Origin: Candidatus Saccharimonadota bacterium
GTDB lineage: Bacteria > Patescibacteriota > Saccharimonadia > Saccharimonadales > Saccharimonadaceae
Assembly (NCBI GenBank): GCA_017459845.1
Contig: JAFUCF010000028.1
Location: 1 to 33,419, forward strand
Reading direction: 5' to 3'
DNA length: 33,419 nt
Below the pieces are notes generated by a model. The model was not told where the DNA came from, did no database searches, and was given only the letters and a program-made list of their open reading frames with translations. This document shows, piece after piece, positions 1 to 5,101 of the stretch. How positions within the stretch are numbered: position 1 is the stretch's first letter; each line of letters opens with the position of its first letter. The translations under genes and the position numbers were made by a program.

Positions 1-45
1 GGCCAATTAATAGGAAGGAGAAACTAAAATGCTAAATATCCACAT

Positions 46-55
46 GGGGGGGGGG
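46..55. repeat. Poly-G tract (10 G) inside the predicted start of surface protein 1
   Basis: Ten consecutive G lie 17 nt after ATG 29, between a strong Shine-Dalgarno site (12-20) and the signal-peptide codons. Only lengths of 9 or 12 G join ATG 29 to the long frame; ten G causes a stop at 68-70. Homopolymer G tracts of this size are known slippage sites in phase-variable surface genes of other bacteria. Confidence 0.75.
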
Positions 56-101
56 TACACTATTAAATAAGAGAACCCCAAAAGTCTCTATTTTTGCCGT
101 T

Positions 102-2297
102 ATGGCATTTTTTGTGCCCCTAACCCTTGGTTTAGGATATGCCGCATACCAGTTTCTTTTTCCAGCTTCTTCCACTTCTGCTACCACAGTATCTGGTGCA
201 GAAGTTGGCCTTACGATTAAAGACTTTATTAAACTAGCTGTAGATACTAATAACTTAGTATTAGTAGATAGTAGTGGTAATACTATTATCTCCCCTTCCT
301 CTACCGGTACCATGATTACTGGAGACGTGAATGTAGCCGTTACTACTAATACTGCCCAAGGCTATTCTCTATCGGTTTATACAGAAGATAATAGTACTAG
401 TATGGTACATAGTAACAGTGCTAGCACCACTTCTCCTGTTACAGACGTTATAGCTTCTATAGACACTATTTCTGGCTATAATGCTGATACTGGCGCAGGG
501 GAGCTTTCTGCTAACACTTGGGGCTTTAGAAATAGAACAACATCTGGGCTTTCTAATTGGTTTGCCGTAGGGGAAAACGAGAGTAATGGTACAGTAATTG
601 CTAATACTAATACTGGCAATTCTCTTTACTGCGAAGCTTTATCTTATCCACTAGAAAGCACCAATTGTGATGCCGGCTCTTACGATACCCACAGTGTAAA
701 CTTTGGCGCTAAAGTAACTGATGCTATTGCTGCTGGTACTTATACTAATAATGTCGTCTTTTCTGCTGTAGCTAAATCCGAAGGTACTAGATATACTTTG
801 CAGTTTAATCCTAATGGTGGTAACAATACCATGGGCCCAAGAACAGTAGTAAAAGGCTCTACCCTGACACTCCCGACAAAAGGCTTTGTAAAGGAAGGTT
901 ACGTTATTAAAGACTGGGCTTTAACTCAAGCCGATGCCGAGGCTAAAACCGAGAACCCAAGTGCCACTACTACAAACCCTACTTATTCTGCTGGCCAAAC
1001 ATTAGAAGTAACCAACCTCCTCCTTGCCGCTACTGAAGCTGGGCAAGCTGTAGAGCAAAATGCTTTAATAAACCTTTATGCTATATGGGGTAACCAATTT
1101 AATATTACGCTTGCAAATGGTAATACTACGGCTATTAATACTCTAACCCCAGCTACTGGTTCTCATACTTATACATTAGGTAGTAGTGTTACCATTACTT
1201 GTACCCCAAACTCTGGTTACCATTGTACAGAATGGGTAAGTAGCAATACGAGCGCATTACCTAGTAAAACTGGTAATGAAACCGCTGGGGCTTTCTCCTA
1301 TACCTTCACCATGCCAGCAAATGATGTTACTTTAACGGCTAATGCCGCACCAAATACCTTTACCATTAACTATAATGCCAATGGTGGCTCTGGCACTACG
1401 TCTAGCCAAACTGCTACCTATGGTACTAATGTTAATTTAAGAGCTAATTCCTTTACCGCGCCAACTGGCAAGAAGTTTAAAGAGTGGAATACTAGTAGCG
1501 ACGGTAACGGCACTACTTATTCAGGCGGACAAACTGGCGTCTCCCCAACTGCCTTAAAGTCTAATGTTACCACCGTAAATGGCGGAAGTATTACCCTTTA
1601 TGCGATTTGGGAAGATACAGCTAAATACTTCCAAACTACCAACGTTTGTTCTACTCTCCCAACTGAAGACACCAGTATTTTGAGAGATAACCGCGACAAC
1701 CAAGATTACACCGTATACCGCTGGGGCTCTAGCGCACCATCCGGAATGAGTAACTACTGTATCATGACAAAAGACTTATCTCTCGGCTATTTCACTGGCG
1801 GTAGCACTACAGCAGGTGGCAACCTCAACCTCACTACCGACACTTCTGCTGCGGCTGGCACAATTACCGCGAGACCTAACGGTAGTGGCTGGAGCACTGC
1901 AAACTCTGATGACAACTTACAGTATCAGAACGGCCCACAATCTGGATATGAAGCCTACTCAAGCCACAGCTACTACAGCTTCGGCGCCGCCCAAAAGGTA
2001 TGTCCGAAAGGCTGGAGATTACCAACAAAGACAGAATATGATAATATCGCAACCTTTATGGGTGGTAACAGCTCTACAGGTTCCTCTAATATTAGAAAAT
2101 ACCCTTATAGCTTCGTCTACGGCGGCGGCTTCTACTCCGGCCGTTGGAACGGTGTTGGTAGCTACGGCTACTATTGGTCGTCTACTCAGAACAATAGCTA
2201 TTACAGTTACTACTTGCTCTTCTCCTCGTCCAGTTTGTATGCGCACTACCTCGATAAGTACGCCGGTATTTCAGTACGCTGCATAGCTAGTAGCTAG
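102..2297 (+). CDS. FISUMP / InlB-repeat surface protein 1 (probably out of frame with its true start)
   Basis: Predicted exported surface protein, possibly a cell-contact or ligand-binding adhesin; the ligand is unknown. From ATG 102 (731 residues) the protein opens with a hydrophobic stretch (residues 1-24). A beta-rich N-terminal domain (about 30-225) follows and is shared with the next gene. Then come three InlB-type repeats (about 230-503) with the usual YAIW ends. A C-terminal FISUMP domain (about 510-731) has CPKGWRLPT, YYWSS and SVRCI motifs. ATG 102 has no Shine-Dalgarno site. A strong one (AGGAAGGAG, 12-20) precedes ATG 29, but that frame stops at 68-70 because the tract at 46-55 has ten G. 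With nine G, ATG 29 would read straight into this frame and add the missing Lys/Arg-rich part of a signal peptide (NKRTPK). The deposited sequence therefore looks like an OFF phase variant. Codons are rich in Asn, Thr and Ser. Domain calls come from recognised motifs; function is inferred. Confidence 0.85.
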   Translation: MAFFVPLTLGLGYAAYQFLFPASSTSATTVSGAEVGLTIKDFIKLAVDTNNLVLVDSSGNTIISPSSTGTMITGDVNVAVTTNTAQGYSLSVYTEDNSTSMVHSNSASTTSPVTDVIASIDTISGYNADTGAGELSANTWGFRNRTTSGLSNWFAVGENESNGTVIANTNTGNSLYCEALSYPLESTNCDAGSYDTHSVNFGAKVTDAIAAGTYTNNVVFSAVAKSEGTRYTLQFNPNGGNNTMGPRTVVKGSTLTLPTKGFVKEGYVIKDWALTQADAEAKTENPSATTTNPTYSAGQTLEVTNLLLAATEAGQAVEQNALINLYAIWGNQFNITLANGNTTAINTLTPATGSHTYTLGSSVTITCTPNSGYHCTEWVSSNTSALPSKTGNETAGAFSYTFTMPANDVTLTANAAPNTFTINYNANGGSGTTSSQTATYGTNVNLRANSFTAPTGKKFKEWNTSSDGNGTTYSGGQTGVSPTALKSNVTTVNGGSITLYAIWEDTAKYFQTTNVCSTLPTEDTSILRDNRDNQDYTVYRWGSSAPSGMSNYCIMTKDLSLGYFTGGSTTAGGNLNLTTDTSAAAGTITARPNGSGWSTANSDDNLQYQNGPQSGYEAYSSHSYYSFGAAQKVCPKGWRLPTKTEYDNIATFMGGNSSTGSSNIRKYPYSFVYGGGFYSGRWNGVGSYGYYWSSTQNNSYYSYYLLFSSSSLYAHYLDKYAGISVRCIASS

Positions 2298-2500: not shown

Positions 2501-2530
2501 TAGACAAACCTTGACGGGGGGGGGTATAAT
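2501..2530 (+). promoter_or_regulatory. Promoter of surface protein 2 with a poly-G spacer
   Basis: TAGACA (2501-2506) and a perfect TATAAT (2525-2530) are separated by 18 bp. The last nine bases of that spacer are G. Losing one G would give the optimal 17 bp, and gain or loss of further bases would weaken the promoter. A second -35-like TTGACG at 2511 lies only 8 bp from the -10 box and is too close to be used. Confidence 0.7.
2516..2524. repeat. Poly-G tract (9 G) in a promoter spacer
   Basis: Nine G abut the TATAAT box of the second surface-protein gene. Because the tract lies between the -35 and -10 boxes, slippage there would change promoter spacing rather than reading frame. Confidence 0.8.
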
Positions 2531-2581
2531 GTTCTTATTAGGAACCCCAAAGGGTGCTTTGGGAGGTAAATTGGAGGCAAA

Positions 2582-5101
2582 ATGAAGAATAACGATAAAA
2601 GTAACCAAGTAAATCAAGTAAAGCAAGGCGCATCTCGCAATACCATGGAAAGTATCTTCCAGTGTATAGCGGGTAAACGTCGGCAGATATGCTTGAACTA
2701 CGCGATAAGTACTAAACAGAAAGTACGTTCTAGCACTATACGGTTTAGCATTCATCAGGGAGCTCAAGTGCCTCAAAAACATAGCAGTAGGCTTTTTAAA
2801 GCCTTTTTCTTTGTTTCTCTTGGGCTCCTTACCTCCCAATTGTTTATTCATTCCGCTTATGCCGCATCATATGTAGATGTTTCTAGTAATGGTGATGGTA
2901 CTAGTGGTTCTGGCGTAGTAAGACTGGGTAGAATTAGTCCATCTAGTACTGGTACTCAAGCCACAGGAAGTGATACTTTAATTATCCATACAGACTGTGC
3001 TGCAGGCTACAAGGTCTATGTCTCTAGCCAAGAAAACCAATCTACTAGCCTTGTTAATAGTAACGCAACTACACCAGAAAACCCAAGCGCTAAAGACCTT
3101 ATCACTGCCGCATCTAATACCCTAGCAGAAGGAGTATCGCCTAGTACTCTTTCTTCTAACACCTGGGGCATTAATGGTAATAGTACCGAAGCCGGAAATG
3201 GTCTATACTATGGTTTACCTTCATTCGAGAATAGTACAGCCTTCCCACTTATTACTATGTCTAATGTAGCAGAAGAAAGTACTGTACCAATCTACTATGG
3301 CGTGAAGGTAGATACCAGCATTAATCCTGGTACTTATTCTGGTAGTGTACTATATACAGTACTTATCAATAATAGCTGTCTAGATTATACCGTAGTCTTT
3401 AATCCAAATGTAAACTCATCATCAACTTCAGAAATTACTGGGACTATGAGCGACCAATCCATTATGTATGGTGAGACTACAGCTTTAAGCCCAAATGCTT
3501 TCTCCCGTTCTAATTACAATTTCCTTGGCTGGTCTACTTCCAGTACTGGTAAGACTGGTACGGTAGTTAATGGCGTTGGTACAACTGCCGATGTAGACTA
3601 CGAAGACGAAGCAGACGTCTTAAACCTCGTCTCTGGCGGTGGGATTGTTACGCTTTATGCGATTTGGGAAGAAATTATCCCTACTCGTATTTCAGAAATG
3701 ACTACTATGCAACAAATGAATAGTGCTATTTGTGCTAATTCAAGCATTGGTGAAAACAAAGTGGTAACCGACGTAAGAGATAATAGCACTTATCGTATTA
3801 ATAAGCTAAAAGATGGTAACTGTTGGATGGTAGAGAACTTAAGAATTACCAACAAAGTCTTAGACAGCACTACCTCAGACCTAGCCGATGGTACTACCTT
3901 TACCGTACCAGCAAGTACTAAACAAGCCTTCACGGAAAGTTTCGCTGGTGTAACTCCACGCATGGCACTATCAGATAATACAAGTTATGGCGGCTATTAC
4001 AACTTCACTGCCGCCACGGCTGGCACTGGTAACGGTTACAACCAAGGTACCACTTCCGGCACATACTCTATCTGTCCGAAGGGCTGGACGCTCCCTACCA
4101 AGGATAACTTTGTAAGCCTAGATAAAGCATTTGGCTACAGTGGTGAGAACCGTACTGGCGGCACTGCCCAATGGAACGCTAGCTATGCTAATACAAACTA
4201 CTCTGCAGGCTATCCTGGTATGGCGCTAGCAGGTAGGTATTACTCAGATTACCCTAACCTCTATTCCGGCCAGAGCGCGGCCTATTGGTCTTCCACGACA
4301 GCTAGTACAACGCACGCGTACTACCTGGACTTCGGTACGGGCAGTACTTACCTGTATCCGCAGAACCAGGTCAGTAAGTTCCTCGGCGCCTCTGTCCGCT
4401 GCATCGTAAAACCAGACACCATGCAAAACCTTAACTGTAACACTATTAATACTGGCACAACTGTAACTCTTAAAGACACTCGTGATGAACAAGACTATAC
4501 CGTCTATCGTTTCCCAAATGCTGGTACAGCCGGGAGTAGTTATCCATCTAGTATGGCGGGATACTGCCTTATGACCAAAGATTTATCTCTTGGCTACGTC
4601 ACCGGTGGTTCAATGACGAAGGGGGAAGATTTAGTCTTAACGGCCGACACTTCTGCTGCGGCCGGTACAATTACCGCTAGAACGGACAAAAGCAACTGGT
4701 CTACCACGAATTCCGACGATAACCTCCAGTACATTAACGGGCCAAAATCTGGTAGTGAAGCCTATTCAAGCCACAGCTACTACAGCTTCGGCGCTGCCCA
4801 AAAGGTTTGCCCGAAAGGCTGGAGATTGCCAACACAGACGCAATATAACAATATCGCAACCTTTATGGGTGGAAATAACTCTACTGGCTCCTCTACGATT
4901 AGGAGTGCTCCTTACAACTTCGTTTTTGGCGGCGGCTTCGGCTCCGGCGGTTGGAACGATGTTGGTAGCGAGGGCTACTATTGGTCGTCTGCTCAGTACA
5001 GTAGCGCTAGCGCCTACTTCTTGGACTTCCATTCGTCCAATTTGTACACGTACTACAGCAGTAAGTACAACGGCATATCAGTACGCTGTATAAGCAGCTA
5101 A
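2582..5101 (+). CDS. FISUMP / InlB-repeat surface protein 2 (two FISUMP domains)
   Basis: Predicted secreted or surface-anchored protein of 839 residues, paralogous to the preceding gene. From ATG 2582 (GGAGG at 2573) there is an unusual polar leader of about 70 residues, then a clear signal peptide (h-region 71-90, cleavage after AYA at 94). Next come a beta-rich domain shared with the paralog (95-265), one InlB-type repeat ending in YAIWE (about 266-363), FISUMP domain 1 (about 365-600) and FISUMP domain 2 (about 605-839). Both FISUMP domains carry CPKGW, YWSS and SVRCI motifs. An alternative start, GTG 2768 behind AGGGAG (2757-2762), would give a conventional signal peptide and 777 residues. 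Domain 2 is nearly identical in DNA to the single FISUMP domain of the first gene except in a C-terminal block of scattered codon changes. Role as adhesin or ligand binder is inferred. Transcription probably depends on a promoter with a poly-G spacer. Confidence 0.88.
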   Translation: MKNNDKSNQVNQVKQGASRNTMESIFQCIAGKRRQICLNYAISTKQKVRSSTIRFSIHQGAQVPQKHSSRLFKAFFFVSLGLLTSQLFIHSAYAASYVDVSSNGDGTSGSGVVRLGRISPSSTGTQATGSDTLIIHTDCAAGYKVYVSSQENQSTSLVNSNATTPENPSAKDLITAASNTLAEGVSPSTLSSNTWGINGNSTEAGNGLYYGLPSFENSTAFPLITMSNVAEESTVPIYYGVKVDTSINPGTYSGSVLYTVLINNSCLDYTVVFNPNVNSSSTSEITGTMSDQSIMYGETTALSPNAFSRSNYNFLGWSTSSTGKTGTVVNGVGTTADVDYEDEADVLNLVSGGGIVTLYAIWEEIIPTRISEMTTMQQMNSAICANSSIGENKVVTDVRDNSTYRINKLKDGNCWMVENLRITNKVLDSTTSDLADGTTFTVPASTKQAFTESFAGVTPRMALSDNTSYGGYYNFTAATAGTGNGYNQGTTSGTYSICPKGWTLPTKDNFVSLDKAFGYSGENRTGGTAQWNASYANTNYSAGYPGMALAGRYYSDYPNLYSGQSAAYWSSTTASTTHAYYLDFGTGSTYLYPQNQVSKFLGASVRCIVKPDTMQNLNCNTINTGTTVTLKDTRDEQDYTVYRFPNAGTAGSSYPSSMAGYCLMTKDLSLGYVTGGSMTKGEDLVLTADTSAAAGTITARTDKSNWSTTNSDDNLQYINGPKSGSEAYSSHSYYSFGAAQKVCPKGWRLPTQTQYNNIATFMGGNNSTGSSTIRSAPYNFVFGGGFGSGGWNDVGSEGYYWSSAQYSSASAYFLDFHSSNLYTYYSSKYNGISVRCISS

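Follow-up and report, generated by a model that had tools for sequence, protein, structure and literature searches.

A Putative Poly-G Contingency Switch at the Start of a Saccharibacterial Surface-Protein Gene

A tract of ten G residues near the start of a surface-protein gene in a Saccharibacterium very likely controls translation of that protein as a slipped-strand contingency switch. The tract lies at positions 46–55 of the stretch of DNA analyzed here (the window), which is 33,419 nucleotides long and constitutes a complete contig (C17; JAFUCF010000028.1) of assembly GCA_017459845.1. The anatomy of the locus, its reading frames, the differences in tract length among paralogs, the recurrence of such tracts in the genus, and the failure to detect mismatch repair genes are shown below. 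The elements at the start of the window are these:

13–20, forward strand: predicted Shine-Dalgarno sequence GGAAGGAG for the ATG at 29, inside a block conserved across all paralogs of this leader (leader A)
29–31, forward strand: ATG29, start of the full-length (ON) frame, conserved in six paralogs and in frame in those on contigs C9, C20, and C33
46–55, forward strand: G10 tract; the ON length is G9, coding for Met-Gly-Gly-Gly ahead of the signal sequence
56–165, forward strand: n-region (NKRTPK) and hydrophobic signal or anchor of the ON protein; the homologous region is coding in C9, C20, and C33
68–70, forward strand: TAA closing the OFF frame, in frame with ATG29 at G10
102–2297, forward strand: 731-codon surface-protein frame encoding repeats of the Flg_new and Flg_new_2 families (InlB B-type) and, at the C-terminus, a Fib_succ_major domain

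The tract begins 17 nt past the A of ATG29 and thus qualifies as a homopolymer of at least eight residues in the 5′ coding region. As assembled, translation from ATG29 gives a product of 13 residues, MLNIHMGGGYTIK, before the stop. Removal of one G joins ATG29 to the 731-codon frame, giving a 755-residue protein (MLNIHMGGGTLLNKRTPKVSIFAVMAFFVPLTLGLGYAA...) whose N-terminus, MLNIHMGGGTLLNKRTPKVSIFAVMAFFVPLTLGLGYAAYQFLFP..., comprises a basic n-region followed by a hydrophobic stretch; addition of two G residues gives the same frame, and addition of one (G11) leads to a stop within a few codons, at about 12 residues. A change of a single unit toggles between full-length and truncated products (G9 versus G10 or G11), as a translational switch demands. 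The long frame itself contains no ATG, GTG, or TTG between its upstream TAA (33–35) and ATG102, and no ribosome site was found upstream of ATG102.

A preliminary description, made from the sequence alone, had reported a strong ribosome site and ATG29 followed by ten G residues and then a stop, the joining of ATG29 to the surface-protein frame upon loss of one G or gain of two, ATG102 as the only start in the long frame and one without a ribosome site, and the supply by the joined frame of an otherwise missing Lys/Arg part of the signal peptide. All of these points held (ribosome site at 13–20, ATG at 29, tract at 46–55, and TAA at 68), the Lys/Arg part being the NKRTPK n-region of the ON protein. 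Its statement that the window was captured in the OFF state also holds for the sequence as assembled. The window starts only 28 nt ahead of ATG29 (45 nt ahead of the tract), however, and contigs C8 and C41 end in copies identical to its first 134–135 nt, so that the G10 tract sits in a stretch common to three contig ends. It may possibly derive from a shared assembly node, and its length is less certain here than in the C9 and C20 copies.

The genome is represented by a 737-kb assembly of 41 contigs, 97% complete, in which the first 135 nt of the window occur six times. Two copies of leader A, on C9 and C20, carry G9 and are in frame (ON), with open frames of 677 and 499 amino acids; those of the window and of the C8 and C41 ends carry G10 and are out of frame (OFF). 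In the C33 copy, ATAGGGAGCGGT replaces the tract with the G9 frame kept, and the sequence reads unbroken as MLKIHIGSGTLLGKRISKVSIFAVMAFFVP...; over the leader coding stretch this copy differs from the G9 copies by point changes only, without indels or stops, as expected of translated sequence. We infer that its tract has decayed, leaving the gene locked ON. Leader-A homology begins just upstream of the ribosome site and the promoters further up differ among copies, indicating that ribosome site, ATG29, tract, and signal sequence form a conserved unit. Because C8, C41, and C17 overlap at contig ends, the distinct G10 copies number one to three; tract-bearing leader-A genes in the genome number at least three, perhaps five.

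Paralogs that are in frame at G9, out of frame at G10, and decayed in the G9 frame are predicted by a translational tract read from ATG29, and not by a start at ATG102. The conserved out-of-frame layout across homologs that would mark a programmed frameshifting gene is not seen, as the C9, C20, and C33 copies are in frame unshifted. The preliminary description had proposed translational ON/OFF phase variation and had asked for comparison with other strains. No second strain could be compared; tract lengths do differ among homologs, with G9 and G10 among the paralogs of one genome and both ON and OFF lengths in sister species, and these support the proposal, switching itself not having been observed.

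A second tract, of transcriptional type and beyond the region (11–104) covered by the preliminary finding, precedes the next gene of the window:

2501–2506, forward strand: −35-like TAGACA, separated by 18 nt from the −10 box; three of the five paralogous leaders have TTGACA here
2516–2524, forward strand: G9 tract in the −35/−10 spacer, whose length is 9 + n
2525–2530, forward strand: −10 box TATAAT, directly after the tract
2546–2563, forward strand: predicted 5′ UTR hairpin CCCAAAG-GGTG-CTTTGGG; the sequence differs in the C9 paralog, which also folds
2582–5101, forward strand: 839-amino-acid surface protein with Fib_succ_major in two stretches and a Flg_new match just under cut-off

The promoter (2501–2530; TAGACA-18-TATAAT) matches 11 of 12 consensus positions, and its homopolymer lies between recognizable −35 and −10 boxes, as required of a promoter-spacer tract. 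This leader (leader B) is found in five paralogous copies (C7, C9, C12, C17, and C35), each composed of TTGACA or TAGACA, nine nucleotides, G9 or G10, and TATAAT; four have G10 (a 19-nt spacer) and one has G9 (18 nt). Conservation starts at the −35 box in copies with unrelated flanks, and the predicted 5′ UTR hairpin follows the promoter in four of the five, the C7 copy carrying one change and folding differently. Tracts of G8, G9, and G10 correspond to spacers of 17, 18, and 19 nt; by analogy with porA, fetA, and opc, length should tune transcription, for which there are no expression data. A TTGACG at 2511, directly before the tract, was considered as the −35 box and dropped, since its spacer would be only 8–9 nt and conservation already sets in at the TTGACA/TAGACA further upstream.

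Copies of leaders A and B are about 87–100% identical over most of their length, their flanks and 3′ domains are diverse, and contigs break there. Relatives of these surface genes often lie at contig ends (C2, C4, C5, C8, C15, C33, and C34), suggesting that the true repertoire is probably larger than that assembled.

In profile searches, Fib_succ_major (PF09603) scored 45.2 and 83.1 bits in the two proteins of the window, against a gathering cut-off of 33.9, and the first protein (102–2297) also exceeded the Pfam cut-offs for Flg_new and Flg_new_2. By Pfam score the window proteins thus resemble known proteins of the Fib_succ_major (FISUMP) and Flg_new (InlB B-type repeat) kinds; we assign them no function beyond adhesin-like. 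When the Fib_succ_major domain was modeled from three sequences of the window, the mean pLDDT was 33, and no fold is claimed. The surface location of both proteins is an inference resting on signal sequence and domain types.

Runs of G or C in the window have lengths of 1–6 and then of 9 and 10, with none of 7 or 8. Across the genome, G runs on either strand are bimodal, numbering 3, 1, 4, and 7 at lengths 7, 8, 9, and 10. A first-order model predicts about 2.8 runs of nine or more, against 11 observed, a modest excess of only about four times simple expectation in one genome. The position of the tracts is stronger evidence than their number: 10 of the 11 fall in leaders A or B, two recurrent gene-start contexts. 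The eleventh, a G9 (G000:C38:40535–40543; locus L040), lies upstream of the gene for a 111-amino-acid protein containing the DNA-binding domain of LexA (PF01726). A TATAAT is found 3 nt downstream of this tract, and the protein is little more than the LexA domain; a poly-G-spaced regulator promoter at this locus, if real, could vary a regulon.

No MutS_I domain was found over cut-off in this genome or its relatives (60 searched), and no MutL domain was found in this genome; control profiles for the repair search were positive in 11 of 14 genomes. This agrees with a published report of no evidence of MutS or MutL in Saccharibacteria (PMC8406219). Loss of mismatch repair raises homopolymer slippage in other bacteria. 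With MutS and MutL not detected, the tracts should be unstable, slippage being largely uncorrected by that pathway.

Tracts of nine or more G residues are present in 59 of 100 genomes of the same genus (this one included) and absent from the other 41, a patchy distribution. Among the 71 tracts of the genus that were read, a TATAAT-like hexamer stands immediately after the run in 24 when the G strand is considered, and in none when the C strand is. At least 13 further genus tracts lie before or inside a signal sequence, at both ON and OFF lengths, coding for Gly-Gly-Gly(-Gly). One sister species (G132) has three paralogs, one with G10 in frame and two with G11 out of frame, and another (G032) has a G9/G10 paralog pair; in a sister species, one gene with a poly-G-spaced promoter (L206) likewise encodes a Fib_succ_major protein. 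A search of 120 relatives for orthologs of the N-terminal region gave a best non-self match of about 33% identity, and none was close enough for gene-by-gene comparison of tract lengths. Candidatus Saccharibacteria isolate RGIG5751, from sheep ileum (L095), has a promoter match at 1672–1698 with the same position and sequence as one in a genome of the same genus (G028:C15:1672–1698), and its release factor shares 75% identity with the one encoded in the window genome; from the RGIG5751 match we infer that the window's genus belongs to the Saccharibacteria and has gut members.

These observations suggest the following mechanism. At G9 (or G12), ribosomes starting at ATG29 would read through Gly-Gly-Gly, the Lys/Arg n-region, and the signal or anchor into the adhesin-like body (ON); at G10 or G8 they would halt within a few codons (OFF), the window showing an OFF length. 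Gain or loss of one G during copying would flip the protein between the two states. In the five leader-B genes, including that at 2582–5101, G9 or G10 spacer length would instead tune transcription. Switching within a population, surface location, and any role in contact with the host bacterium are inferred, no reads or second strain being available. A weak terminator-like hairpin (5 pairs) with a T run was also noted in the signal-peptide coding region of the C20 paralog (L036:5816–5828), at a place corresponding to about 95–112 of the window, just past the OFF-frame stop; possibly, untranslated RNA in the OFF state terminates there.

Several other explanations can be considered. The G10 could be an assembly or sequencing artefact, the true tract being always G9, the gene constitutively on, and the length miscalled at a collapsed repeat. 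The start of the contig 45 nt before the tract and the identity of its first 134–135 nt to two other contig ends favor this, but G10 is also assembled away from such ends (C9:3158 and C12:1641), separately assembled genomes of other species also show a mixture of ON and OFF lengths, and even at G9 a tract of 9–10 nt would remain at a frame-critical point; we regard an artefact as unlikely. Still less credible, and in our judgment very unlikely, is a start at ATG102 or a nearby noncanonical codon, with the ATG29 frame irrelevant. In its favor, no standard start precedes ATG102 in the long frame, but this codon lacks a ribosome site, the resulting protein would be without the Lys/Arg n-region, and the C9, C20, and C33 copies are open from the ATG29 equivalent, with C33 showing divergence but neither indels nor stops in that part.

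Homopolymer runs can promote slippage, and RNA polymerase or ribosomes might slip on the G run such that G10 yields a fixed low level of full-length protein without genetic switching. The differing tract lengths of paralogs and other species, some of them in frame, and the loss of the tract with retention of the frame in C33 make this improbable as the sole explanation, although such slippage could conceivably coexist with genetic switching. The main role of the leader might alternatively be to let surface-protein copies recombine, by gene conversion or cassette exchange, with the G tract incidental; the high identity of leaders A and B (about 87–100%) amid diverse flanks and 3′ domains, and the contig breaks, are consistent with this. 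Recombination leaves unexplained both the frame-critical or spacer-critical placement of the tract and its recurrence at equivalent points in unrelated leaders from other species, and we doubt that it is the main role, though it may act in addition to switching.

The slipped-strand switch that we favor is of a known kind. Translational poly-G contingency loci include Neisseria hmbR and hpuAB and Campylobacter surface genes (PMC3786947, PMC8355987), which share with the present locus a G tract in the coding region, a one-base frame toggle, a surface gene, and occurrence several times per genome. Here, in contrast, the tract encodes Gly-Gly-Gly and is located within the signal peptide or immediately ahead of it, the lineage is one of Patescibacteria without detectable MutS or MutL, and switching has not been demonstrated. 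Neisseria porA, fetA, and opc have a poly-G or poly-C promoter-spacer layout (PMC2791445) resembling leader B, in that surface-protein genes have their −35 and −10 boxes separated by a homopolymer whose length alters the spacing; leader B differs in having a conserved leader (TTGACAAACCTTGAC-Gn-TATAAT) and a predicted 5′ UTR hairpin common to paralogs, its effect on expression being inferred. Local repeat hypervariation in a CPR bacterium has been described for a Gracilibacterium gene, discussed with slipped-strand mispairing (PMC6851277), but there it involves 9-mer repeats within one gene, as opposed to ON/OFF poly-G tracts in many genes. The preliminary description knew of no such case in this lineage, and our search, limited to open-licence PMC papers, likewise found no description of poly-G phase variation in Saccharibacteria or CPR; in that literature neither the occurrence in this lineage nor the gene count nor the pairing of two designs seems to have been described.

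A bolder reading, which we consider likely, is that one family of Saccharibacteria has clade-wide poly-G phase-variable genes, mostly secreted or surface, in the absence of mismatch repair, built in two ways, with the tract in the signal peptide or in the promoter spacer. If true, such a set would be a main generator of surface differences between cells of these host-dependent bacteria, and it might also govern which host bacterium they choose and how they attach to it. Saccharibacteria live on other bacteria and have genomes of about a megabase or less with few regulators; random switching of many surface proteins would account for the way a clone hedges host contact and phage or immune exposure, and the loss of MutS and MutL in the lineage would gain a functional consequence. 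Metagenome reads already available could be used to tabulate tract lengths and relate them to host association. For annotation, assemblies at OFF length likely yield wrong start calls or pseudogene labels for such genes.

Beyond the genus, we searched for the promoter pattern, which permits spacers of about 6–19 nt and excludes longer ones. Across 393 genomes of the order there were 80 matches outside this genome, against 2 for the reversed pattern; spacers were 14–19 nt in 73 of the 80 and tracts 9–10 in 60. The pattern occurs in 37 of the 393 genomes and 14 of 156 genera of the order (this genome included) and is sporadic across the phylum (18 of 287 genomes drawn). A broad scan of named genomes returned poly-G-spaced promoters in many phyla, including Clostridia, Selenomonadaceae, Streptobacillus, and Helicobacter, along with at least two Saccharibacteria, showing that such promoters are not peculiar to this lineage. 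In other uncultured gut lineages (Clostridia, Bacilli, and Selenomonadaceae) and in Streptobacillus, a G tract lies between TTGAC and TATAAT (L044–L120), several times before genes for secreted proteins. Many poly-G-spaced surface-protein promoters in other species of the genus have in common a 5′ UTR motif, ATAAAGGTTATACA (L202, L205, L234, L242, L244, and L245; L053). In one genome (G142; L192, L244, and L245), runs of N adjoin very long G tracts (G11–G20), as if mixtures of lengths had broken the assembly.
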